Shown: positions 921 to 3,798 of the stretch, in pieces
How the letters are laid out: each line of letters opens with the position of its first letter
Position numbering within the stretch: position 1 is the first letter of the stretch
Assembly (NCBI RefSeq): GCF_001293525.1
Contig: NZ_BBYR01000030.1
Coordinates: 124,001 to 188,000, forward strand
Direction of reading: 5' to 3'
From: Pseudideonella sakaiensis
GTDB lineage: Bacteria > Pseudomonadota > Gammaproteobacteria > Burkholderiales > Burkholderiaceae_C
DNA length: 64,000 bases
The notes under the pieces: generated by a model
What the model saw: only the letters and a program-made list of their open reading frames with translations
The model's database searches: none
What the model was told of the DNA's origin: nothing
Made by a program: the position numbers and the translations under genes

Positions 921-1001
921 GCGCGTCCCGCGCGAATCCCCGCGCCGTGTCGCCGGGCGGCGCGGCCGTTCGTGCTGTCCGCCCACCCGGAGGCCTGCCC
1001 C

Positions 1002-1991
1002 GTGAACGACGTGTCCGACACCGCTGCGCTGCCGGCCGACACCCCGCCGGCCGAGGTCGTGCGCTGCTATTGGCAGCGCATGCAGGGGCGCGATTTCCGC
1101 GGGGTTGCGCCGCTGCTCGGGCCGGAGCTGACCGTCGACTGGCCGCAGTCGAACGAGCGCTTCCGCGGGCCCGAGCGCTTCCTGCAGATGAACCGCGAAT
1201 ACCCCGCACACGGGCCCTGGACGGTGCAGCTGCACCGGCTGGTGGCCGACGGGGCCCAGGTCGTCACCCAGGTGACCGTCGGCGACGGCGTCCAGCGCGC
1301 CGAGCCGGTCTCCTTTTTCGAGGTGGCCGCCGGCCGCATCCGCCGCATCGTCGAGTACTGGCCCGAGCCCTTCGCGCCGGCCACCGACCGTCGACACCTG
1401 AGCGAGCCGATCGCGGAGGTGGGCGTGGACGCGTCCGCAGGCGCCGAGCCGGGCGCGGCGGCGGACGCCGCCGGCGCCGTCGACGAGACGGCGGCCCCGA
1501 GCCCGGCGATCGTGGCGGCCGCCGAGCCTCCCATCGCGCCGGTGCCCGTGCCGCGGTCCCCGGCGCAGCCCGGGCCGGTGCCCGCAGCCACCGCCACGGC
1601 CGAGACCCTGCCCGCGTCGCCGGCGCCGCTGCCGCGCCTGCTGACGGTGGTGACCACCGTGGCCTCGCACGAGGACGGGCGCCGCCTCGCGCAGGCCCTG
1701 GTCGGTCGGCGCCTGGCGGCCTGCGCGCAGCTGGAGGCGATCGAGAGCGTCTACGTGTGGGACGGCCGCCTGGAGCAGGCCCCGGAATGCCGGGTGCTGT
1801 TCAAGACCACCGGCGCGCGCGCGGCCGCGCTGGAGGCCGGCATCCGGGCGCTGCACGGCTACGTGCAGCCGGCCATCCACGCGTGGCCGGTGGTGCAGGC
1901 CGACCCGGGCTTCGCGCAGTGGGTCGAGGCGGCCGTCGCGCCGCCGGAGGACGCGCCGGCCGCCGTGCCACGGCTGGACGCGGGGGGATGA
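1002..1991 (+). CDS. NTF2-like (SnoaL-type) domain fused to a CutA1-like domain
   Basis: GTG at 1002 is chosen because GGAGG (989-993) lies eight bases upstream. The 329-residue product has two domains. Residues about 17-128 look like an NTF2/SnoaL cone (helix, WPQSNERFRGPERFL loop, then strands ending in FFEVAAGRIRRIVEYW). Residues about 131-209 are a low-complexity Ala/Pro linker. Residues about 212-312 match CutA1, the trimeric divalent-cation-tolerance protein: LLTVVTTVASHEDGRRLA, RRLAACAQ, YVWDGRLE and LFKTT are in the family order. The CutA1 motif normally read as HPYEVPEI is HGYVQPAI here, so the usual glutamates are missing. CutA1 is normally a 100-115 residue stand-alone protein; I do not know this fusion as a described family. 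The function is unknown. Confidence 0.85.
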   Translation: MNDVSDTAALPADTPPAEVVRCYWQRMQGRDFRGVAPLLGPELTVDWPQSNERFRGPERFLQMNREYPAHGPWTVQLHRLVADGAQVVTQVTVGDGVQRAEPVSFFEVAAGRIRRIVEYWPEPFAPATDRRHLSEPIAEVGVDASAGAEPGAAADAAGAVDETAAPSPAIVAAAEPPIAPVPVPRSPAQPGPVPAATATAETLPASPAPLPRLLTVVTTVASHEDGRRLAQALVGRRLAACAQLEAIESVYVWDGRLEQAPECRVLFKTTGARAAALEAGIRALHGYVQPAIHAWPVVQADPGFAQWVEAAVAPPEDAPAAVPRLDAGG

Positions 1992-2898: not shown

Positions 2899-3798
2899 GT
2901 GTGCCGGCGCCGGTCGACACGATCTCCCTTGCCACCGACAGCCGTCTCCGCCGCCACTGCTGCGTCCCGCCACCCGCGGCCGGGCGGCAGGCCGCCGGCC
3001 CCCCGCGGCGGCGCGCACACCCCGGCCGCTCTGGCGCCGGGCTGGCAGGCGCCCCGGCCGCCGCGCGCGCTGCGGCTGGCGGCCGGCCTGCTGGCCGCTG
3101 CCGCGGCGCTCGCGCCGGTGCTGCCGGGCGCGTGGCGCCCGCAGCGGCCCGCGCCCGAGGGGCGTGAACCGCGCGGCGTGGCCGGTCCGGCGCCCCGGCT
3201 GACGCTGCGCCTGGTGCCGGCGCCGACCTCGGCCTCGGCCCGGCGCGCTCCCGAGCCCGCCGCCGCCCGCCTGCCGCCGATGCCGCTGGACCGCCCGGCC
3301 GTCTCCCGCCGTCCGGCGCCTGTCGCGGTGCCTGCGCCGGAGGACGGCGGCCAGCCGGTGCTGCCGGGCAGCGCGTCACCATCCGCGGCGCCGGCCCTGG
3401 CGGCGCCTGCGCCACGTGAGGCCTCGCCCGCGGCGGCTCCGCCGGTCCCCGTACTGGCCGCCGCGGCTTCCGGCGTCCCGGGTGTCGCCGGTGCCGGTGT
3501 CGGTTCGGCGGCCGCCGGGCCCGCCGCTGGCCCGCTGGCAGACGCGGCGGCCTCTCGCCCGCTGCAGCTCGACGCCGCCACGTTGCGCCGCGCCGCCGCC
3601 GGCAGCCGTGGCGCGGTGCGGGCGCAGGCCGACGCGGCCGGCCGCCCGGTGGACGAGCCGCGTCCCGGCCGCGATGCGGTGCTCGCCGGCGACCTGGCCC
3701 GGGCCGTCAAGCCCGAGTGCCTCGCGCCGAACGCCGGCGGCAGCCTGCTGTCGATCCCGTTCATCGTGGCCGCGGCGCTGCGCGACCGCTGCCGCTGA
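2899..3798 (+). CDS. Pro/Ala-rich membrane-anchored protein of unknown function
   Basis: I do not recognise the family. The frame is open from 2737, but GTG 2899 is preferred because a TAAGCT -10-like box sits at 2873-2878; the start is uncertain. The 299-residue product has a basic N-terminus, one hydrophobic segment (ALRLAAGLLAAAAALAPVLPG, about residues 55-75), a long Ala/Pro/Val-rich low-complexity stretch, and a compact C-terminal tail with two cysteines (KPECLAPNAGGSLLSIP, then ALRDRC). The tail is the only part that looks folded and conserved. One membrane span followed by a Pro-rich stalk resembles TonB/SPOR-type periplasmic proteins in layout only. Confidence 0.55.
   Translation: MCRRRSTRSPLPPTAVSAATAASRHPRPGGRPPAPRGGAHTPAALAPGWQAPRPPRALRLAAGLLAAAAALAPVLPGAWRPQRPAPEGREPRGVAGPAPRLTLRLVPAPTSASARRAPEPAAARLPPMPLDRPAVSRRPAPVAVPAPEDGGQPVLPGSASPSAAPALAAPAPREASPAAAPPVPVLAAAASGVPGVAGAGVGSAAAGPAAGPLADAAASRPLQLDAATLRRAAAGSRGAVRAQADAAGRPVDEPRPGRDAVLAGDLARAVKPECLAPNAGGSLLSIPFIVAAALRDRCR

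Follow-up and report, generated by a model that had tools for sequence, protein, structure and literature searches.

Does the frame at positions 1002–1991 of the window (the whole stretch of Pseudideonella sakaiensis DNA analysed, 64,000 nucleotides) encode a genuine protein in which an NTF2-like domain is joined to CutA1, and if so, what could such a joining do? CutA1 is a widespread protein with a disputed role. As listed in Table 1, a Pfam search placed SnoaL_2 (PF12680; E 3.1e-10, 41.0 bits against a gathering cut-off of 27) in the N-terminal part of the protein and CutA1 (PF03091; E 9.8e-27, 93.1 bits against a cut-off of 22.4) in the C-terminal part, the latter match covering nearly the full length of the model (positions 2–98 of 99). 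When the protein was compared with the PDB using phmmer, residues 18–137 matched 4lmi (E 3.5e-19) and the CutA1 half matched many CutA1 chains, with 4iyq the best (E 1.6e-13). Limonene-1,2-epoxide hydrolase (PF07858) stayed below its Pfam gathering score, at 20.9 against 24 bits. These matches and the stop-free translation bear out the original prediction that both domains lie in one frame of 329 residues. The predicted Ala/Pro linker is also present, with a length of ∼75 rather than ∼80 residues, and the 71 residues 141–211 comprise 23 Ala and 16 Pro (39/71). Judged from sequence comparison, the joining is the sole unusual feature of this protein, and both halves look intact and ordinary.

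Table 1. Features of the fusion gene, in window coordinates.
Feature	Position	Strand	Remarks
Fusion gene, 329 aa, SnoaL_2/NTF2-like, Ala/Pro linker, CutA1	1002..1991	+	GTG start; translation without internal stop
Shine-Dalgarno-like GGAGG	989..993	+	8 nt upstream of GTG 1002; position counted on the sequence
SnoaL_2/NTF2-like domain, residues 20–115	1059..1346	+	Homology extends to about residue 138, base 1415
Ala/Pro-rich linker, residues 141–211	1422..1634	+	Predicted disordered, pLDDT ∼24–31
CutA1 domain, residues 215–310	1644..1931	+	Pfam match and alignment of relatives
Possible internal translation start, GGAGG 1415–1419 and in-frame GTG 1425 (residue 142)	1415..1427	+	Suggestive only

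A single frame could also arise if a sequencing or assembly error, either an indel or a miscalled stop codon, had merged two separate genes. The genome is a draft in 227 contigs and is the only one from which the fusion is known, as would be expected of such an error. We therefore mapped the stop codons around the linker. The coding frame is flanked by stops at 915 and 1989 with none between, a second plus-strand frame has no stop near the linker, and the remaining one has stops at 1399 and 1642, leaving positions 1402–1641 without a stop codon in any of the plus frames. Since homology to free NTF2-like proteins continues beyond 1399 without leaving the coding frame, as far as about residue 138, no single indel in the linker could have ended a separate NTF2-like gene before CutA1. 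GC content at the three codon positions of the linker is 0.86/0.75/0.96 (chi-square p 0.0017), a coding-like pattern that is weaker than that of both domains but consistent with it. The open linker by itself is weaker evidence than usual because the second plus frame is open throughout and GC content is high. Taken together, the stop map and the codon phases speak against a frameshift between two genes, which had been named in advance as the finding that would overturn the prediction. A miscalled base masking a stop would need to fall within this otherwise open, codon-biased linker, and the fusion site is internal to a 210-kb contig. We conclude that the gene appears to encode a genuine single polypeptide and that an artefact is highly unlikely.

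We then compared each half with its free relatives, counting over 34 distinct CutA1 and 18 NTF2-like relatives after exclusion of the repeat loci L055, L056 and L057 and of the window's own loci L001 and L053. An alignment of 23 of the 34 CutA1 relatives (A2) has 20 columns with conservation of at least 90%, and the CutA1 half keeps 19 of them, the sole departure being a change of Ala to Gly. The available text of a study of the Shewanella SIB1 CutA1 describes Tyr45, Trp47, Tyr81, Tyr98 and Trp101 as aromatic residues that lock the trimer (PMC3004244). When mapped by residue spacing these correspond to Y251, W253, Y287, F304 and W307, and the Phe found at F304 also occurs at that position in 6/23 CutA1 relatives. 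With the conserved columns and trimer-lock aromatics kept, the CutA1 half resembles an unexceptional member of its family, and trimerisation is to be expected of it.

The original prediction had called this domain divergent and had read the motif HGYVQPAI as lacking the acidic residues that mark metal or ligand binding. The motif is present and the acids are indeed absent from it, but their loss is not telling, given that the first acid is missing in 9 of the 34 CutA1 relatives, the second in 23 and both in 6. E. coli CutA1 itself carries Gln in place of the Glu of HPYE, according to the available part of PMC8469502. Motif-acid counts and conserved columns thus rule out degeneration of CutA1 or loss of a metal site as a special feature of the fusion, and the description of the domain as divergent is not supported. 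The protein shares with the CutA1 family (PF03091; NCBIfam NF041095) a full-length match, the LAAC, YxW, HxY, P and W positions and the trimer-lock aromatics. It differs by its added N-terminal domain and linker and by a score of 74.5 bits against the cut-off of 120 set for the NF041095 equivalog (divalent-cation tolerance protein CutA), so that it is not named as that equivalog even though it belongs to the family.

The NTF2-like half is also well preserved, as it departs from none of the 18 well-conserved columns in an alignment of all 18 NTF2-like relatives (A1), to which it is 32–59% identical. It resembles SnoaL_2/NTF2-like proteins near PDB 4lmi, a putative ketosteroid isomerase from Kribbella flavida, in sequence, in profile (E 4.8e-32) and in predicted fold, with Foldseek placing 4lmi at the top followed by other ketosteroid-isomerase-like structures. 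In the predicted monomer model the NTF2-like fold is confident (pLDDT mostly 63–92) while the linker scores 24–31; the CutA1 part, modelled from a 3-row alignment, shows the expected succession of strands and helices, though at low confidence (pLDDT 37–51). What sets the fusion apart from these relatives is where it ends. All 18 free relatives stop at the equivalent of residues 136–149, exactly at 138 in 11 cases, whereas the fusion protein runs on into the linker and CutA1.

The CutA1 relatives give a corresponding picture, with fewer than 67 open codons upstream of the domain in 25/34, too few for such a linker. These two boundaries suggest that the parts are normally separate. Most likely, an NTF2-like gene lost its stop codon, which would have let translation run through a spacer in the same frame and on into cutA. 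No NTF2-like and cutA genes were seen side by side among the relatives examined, and in the two relatives where both are listed on one contig they lie ∼54 kb (G021) and ∼98 kb (G172) apart, which gives no ancestral operon behind a read-through event. The window places the fusion gene among two GNAT acetyltransferases, a YCII-domain protein, a DUF1232 protein and a choice-of-anchor I protein. Because the surroundings of the compared CutA1 and NTF2-like loci of relatives differ from these, no pathway can be read from the gene neighbourhood. DsbD of this genome is on another contig, where it adjoins an AhpC/TSA protein, and is not near the fusion gene.

Two neighbours deserve brief description. 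The GNAT acetyltransferase genes are arranged in tandem at positions 1–917, directly upstream of the fusion gene. The YCII-domain protein (215 aa, 2091–2738 on the minus strand) is convergent with the fusion gene and begins with a long N-terminal stretch that by eye resembles a signal peptide, which is unusual in a family of mostly small, cytosolic proteins.

In order to establish how widespread the fusion is, we searched the full-length protein against genome samples that overlap and that include the window's own genome, scoring the best few candidates per genome. Matches were found in 40/60 genomes of relatives, 187/399 genomes of the family sample and 288/399 of the order sample (the family and order searches list part of the weak matches), and, at stricter limits, in 148/369 genomes of the class sample (E 1e-10) and 14/398 of the phylum sample (E 1e-16). 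Among the matches listed in these samples (60, 399, 399, 369 and 398 genomes) no second two-domain protein was found, and all matches other than the protein itself cover one domain. The count of genomes carrying the same fusion, which had been proposed as a check of its novelty, thus returned its own genome only among the matches listed in these overlapping samples. In the family sample a single CutA1 match, from G117, reached into the first domain (residues 81–309), and its fetched sequence (L054) proved to be CutA1 only. Longer matches in the class sample, such as G1083 (123–310), G847 (121–319) and G798 (140–316), were set aside by coordinates alone as they miss the NTF2-like core at residues 20–115. 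Scans of other collections gave one NTF2-like relative in genome_contigs, single-domain matches in plasmids and one CutA1 in viral_contigs. A literature search, with most subscription journals outside its scope, retrieved no paper that pairs CutA1 with SnoaL or NTF2-like domains; the available sections of one NTF2-like paper do not mention CutA (PMC3924330), and in those of another report CutA1 appears merely as an example of a trimer (PMC13311259). The genomes covered include no second member of the genus. The fusion appears to be rare and is perhaps confined to one lineage.

The nearest NTF2-like relative in genome_contigs (L052, contig JAFEBR010000197.1, positions 3019–3387, 57–59% identity) was binned as Planctomycetota. 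Because it resembles proteins from the window's own family, its presence there may reflect contamination or transfer.

Observation of the fusion in a single genome makes a recent accident a possible origin. The joining could be real yet neutral, each domain working like its free relatives and the tether adding nothing. Retention of conserved residues in both domains, the lack of a second fusion among the listed matches in sampled relatives and a gene neighbourhood without any link between the two domains are all consistent with such a fusion. Against it, no other CutA1 was detected in this genome, so that the fusion carries the only one, and the codon-biased 71-residue linker suggests that the arrangement has been retained for some time, although neither observation is proof of a gained function. 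We regard neutrality as a possible explanation, one that we take seriously while leaning against it.

The frame may also yield more than one product. The gene and the stretch immediately ahead of it contain 25 in-frame start codons. Two of these alone, GTG 1002 and GTG 1425, are preceded by GGAGG at good spacing, and GTG 1425 lies four codons past residue 138, the usual end of the unfused NTF2-like relatives. Both features would fit two products from one frame, namely the full fusion initiated at GTG 1002 and, from GTG 1425, free CutA1 bearing an Ala/Pro tail. If the internal start is used, free CutA1 would be available despite the lack of a separate cutA gene, and mixed trimers carrying from zero to three NTF2-like domains would be expected. 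However, among 570 internal in-frame start codons in crude genes of the window, 13 (2.3%) have a GGAGG-type site ahead of them. The linker region offers about ten candidate GTGs, so that a single site of this type is no great surprise. The site is suggestive only and may be due to chance, and we consider a second product possible but on balance unlikely.

We favor, with a probability of roughly 55%, a genuine single polypeptide of two intact, ordinary domains, found in one lineage so far, in which a trimeric CutA1 core carries three tethered NTF2-like domains. The CutA1 part would trimerise as CutA1 proteins do, giving a very stable core from which three NTF2-like domains, either small-molecule-binding or enzymatic, would hang on flexible tethers of ∼75 residues. 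Pairing is common among NTF2-like domains of this type and would make larger assemblies of trimers and dimers possible. In its most elaborate form this would be a self-assembling scaffold, with CutA1 trimers and NTF2-like dimers forming a cage or network and internally started free CutA1 tuning the number of pockets, an arrangement that we consider very improbable. The nearest parallel to the favored tethered trimer is SA1388/YqfO (NIF3/DUF34), where a PII/CutA1-like trimerising domain is likewise joined to another oligomerising domain in a larger assembly, according to the available text of two reports (PMC1779786; PMC8469502). In SA1388 the trimerising PII-like and dimerising NIF3 domains build a capped hexamer (PMC1779786). 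There the PII-like domain is inserted within NIF3 and packs as a lid, whereas the fusion protein has CutA1 at its C-terminus, attached through a long flexible linker to an unrelated partner. The original suggestion of a novel architecture, in which fused cones form a trimer, is fair to infer, but SA1388/YqfO provides a precedent for joining domains of this type.

At present the fusion is known from one genome and amounts to a novel arrangement of two familiar domains. Literature cited in the available part of PMC8469502 doubts that CutA1 acts in metal tolerance and suggests that it carries small molecules or takes part in signalling. Standalone partners that are found fused can indicate a shared pathway. 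In this case the partner has a ligand pocket, a modest hint that CutA1 may act with small molecules, although one example makes it a weak hint.
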